Both the position numbers and the translations under genes were made by a program. Positions 29,078-33,266 of a stretch of DNA of 40,194 nt are shown one piece after another. The notes under the pieces were generated by a model, which saw only the letters and a program-made list of their open reading frames with translations, did no database searches and was not told the DNA's origin. Every line of letters begins with the position of its first letter. Positions within the stretch are counted from its first letter, which is position 1. The stretch is from the NCBI GenBank assembly GCA_022750125.1, contig JAKIWH010000007.1:1-40194 (forward strand), written 5' to 3'. Source of the DNA: Thermoplasmata archaeon. GTDB lineage: Archaea > Thermoplasmatota > Thermoplasmata > Lutacidiplasmatales > UBA184.

Positions 29078-29162
29078 GCGGGGATCGCCCAGCTTGGCCA
29101 AAGGCGCCAGATTCAGGGTCTGGTCTCGCAGGAGTTCGTGGGTTCAAATCCCTCTCCCCGCA
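29078..29162 (+). tRNA. tRNA-Leu (anticodon CAG)
   Basis: An 85-nt type II tRNA. The acceptor is GCGGGGA/TCCCCGC with discriminator A and no encoded CCA. The anticodon stem is CCAGA/TCTGG, loop TTCAGGG, giving anticodon CAG. A long variable arm (around CTCGCAGGAG) identifies the Leu/Ser class. The T-arm is GTGGG/CCCTC with loop TTCAAAT, which leaves a U50-U64 mismatch. The 3' end is the parent of the repeats that bound the toxin-antitoxin modules downstream. Confidence 0.92.
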
Positions 29163-29184
29163 CCTGAACTTCTTTGAATTGCTG
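29151..29184 (+). repeat. tRNA-Leu 3'-end repeat, copy A (att-like, in the tRNA)
   Basis: The last 12 nt of tRNA-Leu plus about 22 nt of flank, with core CTCTCCCCGCACCTGAACTT. Copy D at 31.4 kb matches it at nearly every position through the flank up to ATTGC. It forms the left border of module 1. Confidence 0.75.
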
Positions 29185-29306: not shown

Positions 29307-29639
29307 TCAACCGCGCCGGGCGAGAACCTTGGCGAGCCAACCGTAGACCCCGGGCCTCGGTCGGATTGCATCGACCTGAATTCGGCCTTGAACGATTCGG
29401 TAGATCGCCCGATATCCACCCGGCACTTTCAGTCGCCAGTACCTCGTCGGTCGGCCCTTCGAGTCGTGGAAGTTCTGAGCGTCGATTTTTCCCGCGCCGC
29501 CCCGAGGGTTGGACGCGAGCAAGGGAAAGGCCGAGAAGAAGGAGTCCCGTACGTCAGGGGGCAGCGAGAGCAGCTCTCTACGCGCCTCATCGGAGAAGTC
29601 GATGAGCTGAAGGTAGTCGGACCGCGGGCTTTCAGGCAC
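29307..29639 (-). CDS. RelE/ParE-family toxin (module 1)
   Basis: A 110-residue RelE-fold toxin that is probably an mRNA interferase or gyrase poison. It shows the helical hairpin SDEARRELLSLPPDVRDSFF and the beta-sheet core with basic residues, RPTRYWRLKVPGGYRAIYRI, ending in the PRPGVYGWLAKVLAR helix. It starts at GTG, 5 bp after the stop of the antitoxin gene, in the usual antitoxin-toxin order. Key basic and aromatic residues of the fold are present, so it looks intact. Confidence 0.8.
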   Translation of the reverse strand: MPESPRSDYLQLIDFSDEARRELLSLPPDVRDSFFSAFPLLASNPRGGAGKIDAQNFHDSKGRPTRYWRLKVPGGYRAIYRIVQGRIQVDAIRPRPGVYGWLAKVLARRG

Positions 29640-29644
29640 GGCCG

Positions 29645-29866
29645 CTACCGGCCCAGTCGCTTGAGCTCCTCGTGCTGTGCCAGGACCTCTCGGAGCGGAA
29701 CGCGGGGTCCCTTCGACCGCCGGTTCAATTCCGATCGAAGCTCCGGGGTGAGAGTGTTCTCGTAGAACGACGCGAGCCGCTCCAGGAAGTCATCCCACGT
29801 TTCGGCCCCTGTCTTGAGGCCCTGGAGGTCCTCGAGCGTCGAGCGATGGATGGAAAGGCTCGTCAT
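29645..29866 (-). CDS. Antitoxin of module 1 (VapB/DUF7557-like)
   Basis: Predicted 73 residues from the ATG at 29866 (MTSLSIHRSTLEDLQGLKTG). The N-terminal strand and helices resemble the ribbon-helix-helix/AbrB-type antitoxins of the other modules: STLEDLQ...AETWDDFLERL parallels STRQLLE...GETYDDLLQEL in module 2. The acidic/helical C-terminus would wrap the toxin. The frame is open to an ATG at 29926, but an AT-rich element, TTATCTTA (about 29907-29914 on the minus strand), lies between the two and favours the shorter form. Confidence 0.7.
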   Translation of the reverse strand: MTSLSIHRSTLEDLQGLKTGAETWDDFLERLASFYENTLTPELRSELNRRSKGPRVPLREVLAQHEELKRLGR

Positions 29867-30037
29867 TCGATTTCGTGATGCGGCCACGAAGCTTCGAAAC
29901 GGTCCATTAAGATAATGTTTTCCCATTAAGAAGCCGATGTGGTGAAAGACCTCTGGGGGCTCGCCAGGTTCTAGCCGGGGGCATGAGCAAGTCTCCGCGA
30001 GACGGCGGGCCGGCCCGACGATCTACCGGCACGGAGA

Positions 30038-30082
30038 AGGGATTGGACCTTTCCGGCAGGGCTCTCTCCCCGCACGTGAACC
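30038..30082 (+). repeat. tRNA-end repeat, copy B
   Basis: AGGGATTGGACCTTTCC followed by CTCTCCCCGCACGTGAAC. The second half is the tRNA-Leu 3' end plus flank with one change. The first half resembles the reverse complement of the tRNA T-arm, so GGAGA and TCTCC can pair as a hairpin. It lies between modules 1 and 2. Confidence 0.65.
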
Positions 30083-30123: not shown

Positions 30124-30426
30124 CTATCGGATGCGCCGCTTGAGTTCGGCCAGAGTGCGCCGTGTTACACCGGCATTTTGGTCGACAAGGACGACAATGA
30201 TTCGGTCCTCCGTCGTGATGTAAAAGATGCGCCGGCGCCGATCGAGATGAAACCGCCAAACCCCTCGCAACTCGCGAATTTCTTTGACAAGAACCCCCGG
30301 ATGCGAACGGAAGGGCCCGGCTCGAAGGTACTCGAGATCCTCCTTGAGCCGCCCACGGAGGCGGGCGGGTAGTCGGGTGGCCGCTTCCAGCGCGCGGGAA
30401 TCGAACTCGACGGAGTAGAGGCTCAC
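30124..30426 (-). CDS. RelE-family toxin (module 2)
   Basis: A 100-residue RelE/YafQ-like protein: YSVEFDSRALEAATRLPARL, EDLEYLRAGPFRSHPGVLVK, then the catalytic sheet LRGVWRFHLDRRRRIFYITT and DRIIVVLVDQNAGVTRRTL. The basic strand residues expected for a ribosome-dependent RNase are present. The GTG start overlaps the antitoxin stop (GTGA at 30423-30426), so translation is coupled. Confidence 0.82.
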   Translation of the reverse strand: MSLYSVEFDSRALEAATRLPARLRGRLKEDLEYLRAGPFRSHPGVLVKEIRELRGVWRFHLDRRRRIFYITTEDRIIVVLVDQNAGVTRRTLAELKRRIR

Positions 30427-30653
30427 ACCCCGAGCCTCTTGTACGCCTTGACGGACGGAACCGTCCTTGCCCTACCGCTCCGCAGCTCGGTCACGCGGCG
30501 TCGCAGCTCCTCGACGAGCTCGGCAGGGTAATACTCATCCGCGAGTTCCTGGAGAAGGTCGTCGTACGTTTCCCCCGGGCGCTTCATGGTCTCGAGGAGC
30601 TGCCGAGTGCTCGAACGGATCGTTATGGTGGTGGGCGGGTCGGCGACGGCCAT
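30423..30653 (-). CDS. Antitoxin of module 2 (VapB/DUF7557-like)
   Basis: A 76-residue protein. The N-terminal strand TTITIRSSTRQLLETMK and the helix GETYDDLLQELADEYYP are the hallmark of archaeal ribbon-helix-helix antitoxins of this family; the C-terminal half is basic and helical. A BoxA (GTAAATAA, 30676-30683) and an inverted repeat (ACAAT-N9-ATTGT) lie just upstream of the ATG, as expected for autorepression by the toxin-antitoxin complex. Confidence 0.8.
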   Translation of the reverse strand: MAVADPPTTITIRSSTRQLLETMKRPGETYDDLLQELADEYYPAELVEELRRRVTELRSGRARTVPSVKAYKRLGV

Positions 30654-30683: not shown

Positions 30684-30770
30684 GCACTACGTCGAGGTCG
30701 GGGGTTCGTCCTCGGAGGAATCGGTAGAAGCCAGCGCGATGACCGGCCGGGGCGGATCTTGATTCCGAAG

Positions 30771-30812
30771 CGGATTGGAACTTTCGGGATTGCACTCCCC
30801 CCGCACCTGAAC
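30771..30812 (+). repeat. tRNA-end repeat, copy C
   Basis: CGGATTGGAACTTTCGGGAT followed by CTCCCCCCGCACCTGAAC. It matches copy D in both halves and the tRNA-Leu 3' end in the second. It lies between modules 2 and 3. Confidence 0.7.
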
Positions 30813-30867
30813 CCCGAACGGATCATCACATGGTAAGCTATATGCGCGCCATGCTCTATCTATGAGC

Positions 30868-31104
30868 ATGATCACCACGATCCAACTCGCACCGGCGACC
30901 CGTGAGCGCCTCGCGCTGCTGAAGCAGTCGCCTCGGGAGACCTACGACGAGCTTCTGAACAAGCTACTCGATCTGGTCCCGACTGGTGATGAGGAAGGTA
31001 CTTACCGCGCTGCGTTCCGGGTCGGCCTGCTCAATGCACGACTCGACATCCGAGCACGTCGCACGGTCGGCCACGAGGAATTGAGGCGCAGGTTGAATCT
31101 CTGA
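30868..31104 (+). CDS. Antitoxin of module 3 (VapB/DUF7557-like)
   Basis: A 78-residue protein (MITTIQLAPATRERLALLKQ...). It carries the family motif SPRETYDELLNKLLDLVP and a C-terminal basic helix, HEELRRRLNL. An ATG 6 nt upstream (30862) is possible, but CTATATG (30838-30844) is about 27 nt from the chosen ATG, which fits leaderless transcription. It is a close paralogue of the module 5 antitoxin. Its end lies just before the toxin frame. Confidence 0.8.
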   Translation: MITTIQLAPATRERLALLKQSPRETYDELLNKLLDLVPTGDEEGTYRAAFRVGLLNARLDIRARRTVGHEELRRRLNL

Positions 31105-31355
31105 AGGCCTGGTCGATTCGGTGGTCCGAGACCGCCGCCCGCGATCTGGGCCGGCTCGACGCTCCCGTCGCTCGTCGGGTCGTTCGGAAGCTCGAGTCCG
31201 CCGCCAGCGATCCGGTCCGCTTCTTCCTCTCGCTGGTCGGTTCCGACGAACGTAAGCTCCGCATCGGCGACTACCGGTTGCTCGCGTTGCTCGATCCGGC
31301 GACACGGACAATCCTCGTCGAGCGGGTCGACCATCGGGCCCGCGTCTACCGGTAG
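31101..31355 (+). CDS. RelE/ParE-family toxin of module 3, non-canonical start
   Basis: A frame of about 84 residues: KAWSIRWSETAARDLGRLDA, VARRVVRKLESAASDPVRFF, then the toxin core VGSDERKLRIGDYRLLALLD, ending DHRARVYR. This is a complete RelE/ParE fold. No ATG, GTG or TTG exists at the expected place; the frame reads ATT at 31080 and CTG at 31101, the latter overlapping the antitoxin's last codon. Either CTG is used, translation is coupled in an unusual way, or the start has been lost and the toxin is silent. Confidence 0.7.
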   Translation: MKAWSIRWSETAARDLGRLDAPVARRVVRKLESAASDPVRFFLSLVGSDERKLRIGDYRLLALLDPATRTILVERVDHRARVYR

Positions 31356-31404
31356 GGGGGCTCGACAGAAAGGGCTCCCGCGAAACTCGAGGGCCATCGG
31401 GGCA

Positions 31405-31462
31405 GGGATTCGAACCTTTCGGGATCGTCCTCTCCCCGCACCTGAACTTTCTGGGATTGCAG
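31405..31462 (+). repeat. tRNA-end repeat, copy D
   Basis: The longest copy. GGGATTCGAACCTTTCGGGA is followed by CCTCTCCCCGCACCTGAACT and then a flank like that of the tRNA itself (ending GGATTGCAG versus GAATTGCTG). The 5' part, from CGGGGCAGGGATTCGAACC, is close to the reverse complement of the tRNA-Leu T-arm and acceptor. It lies between modules 3 and 4. Confidence 0.75.
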
Positions 31463-31609: not shown

Positions 31610-31618
31610 CTTAGGTCC

Positions 31619-31860
31619 GTAAAGACCGTGACCTTGGCGGAGGACGCTTACCTCGCCCTCGCGGCGAGAAAGCGGGGGGCGAGAGCTTCAGCGAGGTCGT
31701 GAGGAGGCTTGCCCGGACTGAACGCTCCCTCCACGAGTTCGTCGGCGCATGGGAGGACGTGCCCGCCGAAAAGCTCGCGAAGTTCGAGGATTGGATGGAA
31801 CAGAGCAACCGATCGTCCCGGACCGAAATGCTCCGTTTGGGGCGACGGCACGGGAAGTGA
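31619..31860 (+). pseudogene. vapB: VapB antitoxin, frameshifted (module 4)
   Basis: The frame begins at GTA (31619) or GTG (31628): KTVTLAEDAYLALAARKR. At the six-G run 31674-31679 the reading frame changes and continues as ESFSEVVRRLARTERSLHEF, ending RRHGK. Together these make a normal ~80-residue VapB of the type found with archaeal VapC (KRxGESFSEVVRRL is the family signature). One extra G would restore a single frame. The original start codon also seems altered (GTA where ATG or GTG is expected). Either a decayed gene or an under-called homopolymer. Confidence 0.7.
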
Positions 31861-31864
31861 CGCC

Positions 31865-32250
31865 GTGGCGAGCCTGGACTCAACCTTCCTGATCGATCTG
31901 CTCCGAGGCGTCCCTTCGGCGGTCGCGCGACTGGAACAGTTCGAACATCAGCGGGAGCTTCGATCCATAACTCCCCCGGCGGCCGCGGAGGTCATGGTCC
32001 GGGCCCACGGATTCGGGGGAAATCCCTCACCGCCGCCGAGGATCTGATCCGCTCCCTTCAATGGCTCGAGTTCGATTGGGAATCCTGTCGCCTCGCGGGG
32101 CGAATCGAGGCCGATCTCATTTCCCGTGGAGAGTCGATGAGCGCCTCCGATCTGTTCATCGCCGCGGTGAGCCTCCGACATGGGCAACGATTGATCACCC
32201 GGGACCGTGGCTTTGACCGAGTCCCCGGACTGAAGGTCGAGACCTACTGA
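31865..32250 (+). pseudogene. vapC: VapC PIN-domain toxin, frameshifted (module 4)
   Basis: A PIN-domain RNase of about 128 residues in two frames. The first part is ASLDSTFLIDLLRGVPSAVA through PPAAAEVMVRAHGFGG. After the G run at 32015-32019 the frame shifts to KSLTAAEDLIRSLQWLEFDW, SMSASDLFIAAVSLRHGQRL and ITRDRGFDRVPGLKVETY. All four acidic PIN residues survive (D near the start, E in AAAEVM, D in SASD, D in ITRDRGFD). One added G would mend it, as in the neighbouring vapB. GTG start 4 bp after vapB. Confidence 0.8.
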
Positions 32251-32293
32251 ATCGAAACCCGGGACGCGCCGCGCGCCGGACGGCTCGCTCGTG

Positions 32294-32334
32294 GGTAGGA
32301 ATTTCCCGTCGATCCTCTCTCCCCGCAGCTCGAA
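32294..32334 (+). repeat. tRNA-end repeat, copy E (most diverged)
   Basis: GGTAGGAATTTCCCGTCGAT followed by CCTCTCTCCCCGCAGCTCGAA. It keeps the CTCTCCCCGCA core but has drifted in the flank. It lies between modules 4 and 5. Confidence 0.55.
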
Positions 32335-32396
32335 GTTCGCGCGAACTGCGAGGGGAAGGGACAAACTAGATGGTTGCCATGTGCCACGACATCGGC

Positions 32397-32606
32397 ATGA
32401 CTTCGACTGTCCGGTTCTCGCGCGAGACTCGCGCTCGCCTCGCGGCATTGAAGCAGAGTCCGCGAGAGACCTACGACGAGGTAGTGAACAAGCTGCTCGC
32501 GCTGGTACCTCGAGGGGACCGCGAACACCGGTACGCCGCGTTCCTAGTCGGGCTCCCGGACTCCGAGTTCGACACCCGTTCTGGTCGAACTGTCCGCCGT
32601 GAGTAG
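32397..32606 (+). pseudogene. Orphan antitoxin of module 5, truncated by a stop codon
   Basis: A 69-residue frame (MTSTVRFSRETRARLAALKQ, SPRETYDEVVNKLLALVPRG) closely similar to the module 3 antitoxin. Where module 3 reads GAA-TTG-AGG (ELR) this copy reads TAG-CTC-AGG, so a nonsense change removes the last helix. No toxin gene follows: the TetR gene begins on the other strand 2 bp away. It is probably the remnant of a module whose toxin has been deleted, although a truncated antitoxin could still bind DNA or a related toxin. Confidence 0.7.
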
Positions 32607-32607
32607 C

Positions 32608-33222
32608 TCAGGCGTACCCCGCAAGCTCGAGGGCGACACGGGTGAGGAGCGTGGCGACCGCATCGGCGGAGCGGGTGCTTGTCGCGAGCGCATCGAACGT
32701 TTCGAAGCTCGTGAGGGTAGTGAGGAGGTCGACCAGCTCCTCCCGCTCCCTCGGCTTTCGAGCGCTCATGCCCTTCCCGAGCTTCTCGAGAAGGTTCTTG
32801 ATCGCCTCGCGTCGCCAGCTGTCGCGGTCCCGTGGAGCCCGGTCCGATGATGGAGCGACCACGCCCATCGCCCGGATCCTCCGAAGCGTGATCCGGTCCG
32901 AAGACCAGAAGCTCACGAAGGTCTCGACGAGGGCTCGGAGCGCTTTCCTCCCGTCCGGTTCCTGGAACACCTCCCGCATCCGTCGCATGCCACCCTGCTG
33001 GGCGAGGTGATCGGAGAGTCCTTCGAGCAGCTTCTCGCGCGAAGGGAAATGGTAGTAGACGGTCATCCGCACCACCCCCGCGCTCCGTGCGACCGCCTCC
33101 ATTGAAAAGTCGGTGAGGTCCCCCTTTCCGCCGACGATCGCCCGGGTCGCCTCGAGGATGCGAAGCCGCGTGGCTTCAGCTCCCGGGCGACGTCGGCTCG
33201 AATCGTACGCGCGCGGAGACAT
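32608..33222 (-). CDS. TetR-family transcriptional repressor
   Basis: A 204-residue regulator from the ATG at 33222. The N-terminal helix-turn-helix (RLRILEATRAIVGGKG, FSMEAVARSAGVVRMTVYYH FPSREKLLEG) is typical of TetR. The C-terminal ligand-binding part is all-helical and rich in Arg/Leu (ALRALVETFVSFWSSDRITL). It is divergent from the SDR gene, whose promoter contains a 17-bp inverted repeat, so it likely represses that operon and itself. The inducer is unknown. A longer start (33249) would run into the shared promoter. Confidence 0.9.
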   Translation of the reverse strand: MSPRAYDSSRRRPGAEATRLRILEATRAIVGGKGDLTDFSMEAVARSAGVVRMTVYYHFPSREKLLEGLSDHLAQQGGMRRMREVFQEPDGRKALRALVETFVSFWSSDRITLRRIRAMGVVAPSSDRAPRDRDSWRREAIKNLLEKLGKGMSARKPREREELVDLLTTLTSFETFDALATSTRSADAVATLLTRVALELAGYA

Positions 33223-33266
33223 GCTACCGGCCCACCCCCCTTCGGACATCAGGATATGCCGACAGC

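Follow-up and report, generated by a model that had tools for sequence, protein, structure and literature searches.

Rows of toxin-antitoxin cassettes downstream of tRNA genes in a family of Lutacidiplasmatales archaea

In a 40,194-nucleotide stretch of DNA from a Thermoplasmata archaeon of acid soil (the window, meaning the whole stretch analysed), the 3' end of a tRNA-Leu gene recurs four times behind the gene itself, which raises the question of what these copies, and the sequences that precede them, are for. An earlier note on this DNA had read them as recombination sites, folded and imperfectly paired, reminiscent of integron attC sites or of hairpins recognized by single-strand transposases. 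The comparison of related genomes lends good support to one half of that reading, an integron-like array of cassettes, and speaks against the other, the folded site.

The tRNA-Leu array and its cassettes

The repeated core is the 3' end of tRNA-Leu(CAG), CCCTCTCCCCGCACC, and the tRNA's own end is counted as copy A. This end (CTCTCCCCGCACC) is found, always in one orientation, at 29152 (copy A), 30064 (copy B), 30795 (copy C), 31430 (copy D) and 32317 (copy E), with core-to-core distances of 912, 731, 635 and 887 bp. Each copy outside the tRNA consists of a conserved arm of ~28 nt (consensus AAGGGATTCGAACTTTTCGGCAATGC), which resembles an inverted T-arm, followed by the tRNA-Leu(CAG) 3' end. 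The sites so formed bound cassettes of ~0.63–0.91 kb, and every interval between copies in the window is a type II toxin-antitoxin (TA) locus. The features are as follows:

29078..29164, + strand: tRNA-Leu(CAG) (ARAGORN; Rfam tRNA 42.2 bits), the proposed docking site in the role of attI or attB
29307..29926, - strand: cassette 1, ParE-family toxin (29307-29639) and DUF7557-related antitoxin-like protein (29645-29926) (Pfam)
30033..30076, + strand: site B, arm GGAGAAGGGATTGGACCTTTCCGGCAGGGCT then core CTCTCCCCGCACG; model match E 4.9e-9, site B itself being among the sites used to build the model (R1)
30124..30653, - strand: cassette 2, ParE/Gp49-like toxin (30124-30426) and DUF7557/VapB-like antitoxin (30423-30653), both Pfam matches lying under the curated cut-off
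30765..30807, + strand: site C, arm GAAGCGGATTGGAACTTTCGGGATTGCA then core CTCCCCCCGCACC
30862..31355, + strand: cassette 3, DUF7557 antitoxin (30862-31104) and ParE toxin (31098-31355) (Pfam)
31399..31442, + strand: site D, arm GGGGCAGGGATTCGAACCTTTCGGGATCGTC then core CTCTCCCCGCACC; E 1.0e-8 and 8.7e-7, site D itself being among the model's training sites
31610..32251, + strand: cassette 4, VapBC with frameshifts in both genes
32287..32328, + strand: site E, degenerate, arm then core CTCTCCCCGCAG; E 5.3e-6
32370..32606, + strand: remnant of cassette 5, DUF7557 antitoxin (Pfam) lacking a toxin and a distal site
32608..33249, - strand: TetR regulator (Pfam), chromosomal flank

Three of these cassettes combine ParE with a DUF7557-related antitoxin, two of them reversed and one forward, with some domain scores under the Pfam cut-off. 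Cassette 1 has relatives at Met-type sites (loci L133 and L128), the antitoxin of cassette 5 is 58% identical to that of cassette 3, and an intact VapBC homologue of cassette 4, on which the Pfam assignment was made, lies directly 3' of the tRNA in a sister genome (G002). In that genome, too, the TetR flank stands just past the last site. The tRNA-distal cassettes of the window are decayed (4 is frameshifted, 5 has lost its toxin and site) and the tRNA-proximal ones look intact, a pattern consistent with age increasing with distance from the tRNA. No recombinase gene was recognized among the ORFs of the window's cassettes, and none for an integrase was recognized beside the window's tRNA-Leu.

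Anatomy and folding of the sites

The upstream parts of copies B-E are one conserved element, not four independent hairpins. As the earlier note had seen, an inverted fragment of the tRNA end precedes copy D (CGGGGCAGGGATTCGAACC, which approximates that end's reverse complement), and weaker related forms occur in B, C and E and are absent from A. Across 347 kb of fetched loci, partly picked for having sites, the arm consensus gave 34 matches as compared with 1 in shuffled sequence. Judged from the consensus, the conserved feature appears to be the sequence itself, namely an inverted T-arm-like half followed by a direct half that can be read as a T-arm interrupted by two small insertions. A second GAACTTTTCGGCAATG-like copy stands directly 3' of the core, 31-32 nt from the first, at 31444 in the window, at L127 11626 and at L135 408.

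The further proposal that the copies can form hairpins was not confirmed. Folded as top-strand DNA, B, C, D and E gave z values of -0.7, -0.2, -1.6 and +0.9, respectively, and 35 sites set against dinucleotide shuffles gave a mean z of +0.14 for the inner 32 nt and of -0.09 for the 62 nt that include the outer arms. RNAalifold returned no consensus structure for the sites. Specifically, the named consensus hairpin pairs in 81.0% of cells as compared with 79.3% after shuffling, and 5 pairs carry two-sided changes, which is the shuffled level (4.0; 167/500). The covariation score lies a little above shuffles (9/500), a marginal excess that related sequences can produce without any structure, and the conserved pairing with extrahelical bases of attC-type folding was not found in the sites. 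Pairing no stronger than in shuffled sequence is a ground on which the earlier note had itself proposed to give up a folded, imperfectly paired site; compensatory change is at most marginal, and neither an attC-like fold nor a hairpin for a single-strand transposase is supported here. In Leu sites the core shows mild complementarity to the outer arms (Fisher p = 0.005), in Met sites it does not (p = 0.81); this complementarity between outer flank and acceptor end, mild and confined to Leu sites, was rejected as support for a hairpin.

Core, local tRNA and cassette exchange

One and the same arm occurs at four tRNAs (Leu-CAG, Cys, Thr and an intron-containing Met), and the segment that follows it matches the local tRNA. 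The search rested on a sequence-only model built from nine sites, all of them Leu, and run over 103 genomes of the family. It found further sites in other genera, and also arms at tRNA-Cys, tRNA-Thr and intron-containing tRNA-Met, whose post-arm match to the respective tRNA 3' end falls mostly outside the model stretch that aligned. Specifically, two sites at the tRNA-Cys of G005 are each followed by CCCTCCCTTGGCT, the arm at tRNA-Thr in the window's own genome (G000) by CCCTCTAGCGGCT, and arms at intron-containing tRNA-Met in G029 and G048 by variants of CCCCCCCGACACC; for several Met-type sites the tRNA lies outside the fetched stretch and the assignment is by sequence alone. The identity between tRNA and site core extends over about 11-13 bp in Leu and Thr and over at least 22 bp in Cys. 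Of the four tRNAs in the window's own genome that carry CCCTC at the border of T-stem and acceptor, three are target types (P = 0.0014, or 0.005 counting Met, a post hoc count), and Met-type cores are without CCCTC.

Sites of this kind occur in a single family of Lutacidiplasmatales, in about 15–20 of its genomes. Among 106 genomes of the order, 20 have a match at E <= 0.003, and in a 400-genome sample of the class those at E <= 1e-4 are confined to this family; the filters of these wide searches miss weak matches. All genomes are MAG-like drafts, and several sites lie at contig ends. The exact site pattern gave 17 matches in named genomes, 7 of them in archaea of this kind and the remainder, in scattered bacteria, probably by chance; it gave none in viral contigs. 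The matches include the isolates SubAcS15-67, SubAcS15-120, SubAcS9-61 and AcS5-116, which are listed as members of Lutacidiplasmatales (PMC9287336). Three isolated observations concern copies of another form: a 24-nt tRNA-Leu end copy preceded by a near-perfect palindrome, TTTGAACCGCCGGGCGGTTCAAA, near a contig end (G004, L091 ~4186, - strand); a tRNA-Leu end copy with no recognizable arm or nearby tRNA gene (G005, L089 4849); and a site-like element in reverse orientation directly 3' of tRNA-Leu(CAA) (G005, L141 5080-5230).

Homologous cassettes turn up in different genomes and genera, at different tRNAs and in different orders. With the neighbouring aldolase and the tRNA as anchors, the homologous locus was pinpointed in five genomes of the genus. 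There, the row in G002 reads VapBC, site, cassette 3, site and window-type TetR flank; a single MNT/HEPN cassette with one site is present in G003 and likewise in G005; in G004 cassette 3 is accompanied by a degenerate site; and G001 retains no more than a weak remnant of that cassette's antitoxin. Cassette 3 is a discrete unit of 627-636 bp, core to core, in G000, G002, G029, G047 and G062, which span two genera. It precedes VapBC in the window and follows it in G002, and the G062 array reads ParDE, MNT/HEPN, VapBC. The cassette 3 antitoxin of the window is 91% identical to that of G029, from another genus, and 87.5% identical to that of the sister G002, whereas the neighbouring aldolase is 78% identical to G029 and 95% to G002. 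Similarly, the MNT/HEPN pair of G005 shares more identity with G062 (82/73%) than with G003 of its own genus (72/67%). This phylogenetic conflict indicates that cassettes have been exchanged, and the compared sequences as a whole support shuffling between genomes as well as between tRNAs.

A single case bears on how the exchanged unit is delimited. In the tRNA-Cys array of G005, a relative of cassette 3 is preceded, at the expected core position, by a decayed Leu-type core (16/18 bases), whose score was reached by 3 of 1533 control windows. A Leu core inside a Cys array fits a unit with its core 5' and its arm 3' and a crossover at the core's left edge, and is suggestive, not conclusive, evidence for a unit that carries its core. 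The same array contains a gene for an IS66-family transposase (L139 6750-7868). Near some sites there are an HNH endonuclease gene, a metallo-beta-lactamase-like gene and a Fic gene (L138 5274-7797, L143 5884-6954), and cassettes there may carry more than type II TA genes.

Proposed mechanism, candidate recombinases and known systems

We favor, with a probability of roughly 0.6, a model in which a tyrosine recombinase, acting in trans on double-stranded sites, inserts non-autonomous TA cassettes at tRNA 3' ends. The mobile unit would comprise the tRNA 3'-end core, the TA genes and the constant arm of ~28 bp. In a circular cassette, the joint of arm and core would recombine with the T-arm/acceptor junction of the tRNA or with an earlier site, the crossover falling at or near CCCTC at the core's left edge. 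Each insertion would complete the tRNA with the incoming core and push the resident core downstream behind the arm, such that repeated insertion builds a row of cassettes, and selection may account for their TA content. The model draws support from the arms that a Leu-derived search found at other tRNAs, the recurrence of cassette 3 as a unit, the differing cassette orders, the phylogenetic conflict, the Leu-type core in the Cys array, the CCCTC count and the integrase that abuts the G005 array. Against it stand the varying extent of core identity, the Met-type cores without CCCTC, the missing pair of obvious half-sites and the rarity of a recombinase beside the arrays. No circular form, pair of empty and occupied sites or movement was observed among the draft genomes compared.

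As to the recombinase, none was found beside most arrays. A XerA-like tyrosine recombinase gene is present in most of the 103 family genomes, including the window's own (G000:C21, named by position and PF00589 score). In two array-bearing genomes, G003 and G047, it is the sole PF00589 gene detected, and G002 and G079 yielded no such gene, all four being drafts that are 69-88% complete. Fifteen array genomes, picked by strong model matches, have a mean of 3.6 PF00589 genes as compared with 1.95 in the rest (p = 0.02), which may only reflect more mobile DNA. A tyrosine integrase fragment abuts an array site in G005, the only adjoining integrase. Homologous tyrosine integrase genes lie beside or near the 3' ends of tRNA-Arg, tRNA-Ala and one other tRNA (L144, L145, L146, L096), and the window's own genome has one next to tRNA-Arg (G000:C116); these are possible helpers. 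Viral contigs contained no relatives of the tRNA-adjacent integrase.

Several rival explanations account for part of these data. Tandem integration into tRNA genes is common and TA genes persist in decaying elements, so that the rows might be ordinary remnants of successive tRNA-integrated elements or plasmids, in which homologous recombination left TA genes and displaced tRNA ends and no dedicated cassette system operates. The broken cassettes 4 and 5 suit this explanation; however, an identical arm at four tRNAs in several genera, the recurrence of intact cassettes of constant length and the intactness of single-cassette arrays make it improbable. A casposase or other Cas1-like enzyme could have inserted the cassettes at tRNA 3' ends and left the core as a target-site duplication, as do the casposases of M. 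mazei and A. boonei, whose insertions at such ends produce duplications of 14-15 bp (PMC6977970), a length similar to that of the core, which also matches the local tRNA. Against this, cassettes start without an inverted copy of the arm (no consistently placed reverse-strand match within the 200 nt that follow a core), Cas1 is present in 19 of the 103 family genomes and was not detected in G000-G004, all but G001 site-bearing, and duplication would not predict the Leu core apparently carried into the Cys array. Cas1 was thus rejected as the agent, and we regard the casposase route as very improbable.

Recombination of the true integron type, in which arm and core fold into a single-stranded hairpin of the attC kind and the T-arm of the tRNA takes the part of attI, would explain the anatomy of docking site, cassette, constant 3' arm and repeated core, and it can draw on a consensus with one-sided bulges (AGGG-ATT-CGAA-CTN-TTCG-gc-AAT-g-CCCT) and on the slightly raised covariation score. 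It is nevertheless hard to credit, given a site of only ~32 nt, folding and two-sided changes at the shuffled level, and no integron integrase (IntI) above the TIGR02249 cut-off in the 103 genomes, which as drafts do not make the absence absolute; the matches under the cut-off are mostly XerA-type genes. A special case of the favored model is less far-fetched, though still unlikely: host XerA would move the cassettes as XerC/D moves the dif modules of Acinetobacter, arm and core being a diverged Xer site. Those modules are a precedent for TA modules shuffled in trans (PMC13141974), and the host gene is widespread, the sole candidate in G003 and G047. But near-universal XerA contrasts with arrays in about 15-20 of 106 genomes, array genomes are richer in PF00589 genes, and dif architecture is not obvious in arm and core. 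Published dif sites measure 28 bp, two 11-bp inverted arms around a 6-bp spacer (PMC2958812); by eye, the present consensus (A3) has no obvious pair of equal inverted half-sites, and no dif-like site as described there was recognized in the arrays.

Broader still is the proposal that these arrays are a previously undescribed platform, an independently evolved archaeal counterpart of the integron in which tRNA genes serve for docking and one trans-acting recombinase, possibly XerA, loads and shuffles recombinase-free TA cassettes with a single arm. We put this at slightly under an even chance. Such arrays are not mentioned in the available text of the open-licence PMC papers searched. If the proposal is true, neither an integron integrase nor a folded attC is needed to build arrays of exchangeable cassettes, tRNA genes can act as ports, and such a system has spread through a single family of archaea. 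The arrays would then also offer a natural, testable case of TA genes as cassette cargo and a route to the responsible recombinase.

Among known systems, archaeal elements that integrate into tRNA genes are usually far larger and bring an integrase of their own, whereas the present units are mostly ~0.6-1 kb, contain TA genes only, with no integrase gene of their own in the window, and share one arm across several tRNAs. With their tyrosine integrase those elements likewise insert at the 3' part of a tRNA (PMC6563490). They repeat the tRNA end at the far side, as do the present arrays, in which an intact tRNA is accompanied by direct repeats of its 3' end. Casposons are likewise archaeal, target tRNA 3' ends and leave a repeat of ~14-15 bp (PMC6977970). 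In contrast, the present cassettes have no inverted arm at their start, and neither terminal inverted repeats nor, in many array genomes, a Cas1-type casposase was found.

Large Vibrio integron arrays contain TA genes, a content shared by the present arrays. Integrons and CALINs, including the archaeal integrons of Ghaly et al. 2022 (PMC9668308), are likewise rows of small cassettes with a common 3' site, shuffled from genome to genome, and often have no recombinase beside the row; the words 'tRNA' and 'Thermoplasm' do not occur in the available text of that paper. A small-cassette array with a common 3' site and variable order is indeed what was found here, but the docking site is a tRNA gene instead of an attI next to intI, no IntI was found, cassettes lie in both orientations, and the site of ~45 bp is conserved in sequence rather than in structure. 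The dif modules of Acinetobacter (XerC/D, pdif) are also small, often TA and shuffled in trans (PMC13141974). They are plasmid-borne and bounded by dif-like sites, whereas the present arrays are chromosomal and tRNA-docked, with sites in the same orientation within each array. With neither an IntI nor a folded attC found, the system falls outside integrons, and, no dif-like site having been recognized, it probably falls outside dif modules. Taken together, the best reading is of a system that works like integron cassettes and Acinetobacter dif modules and appears to belong to neither.
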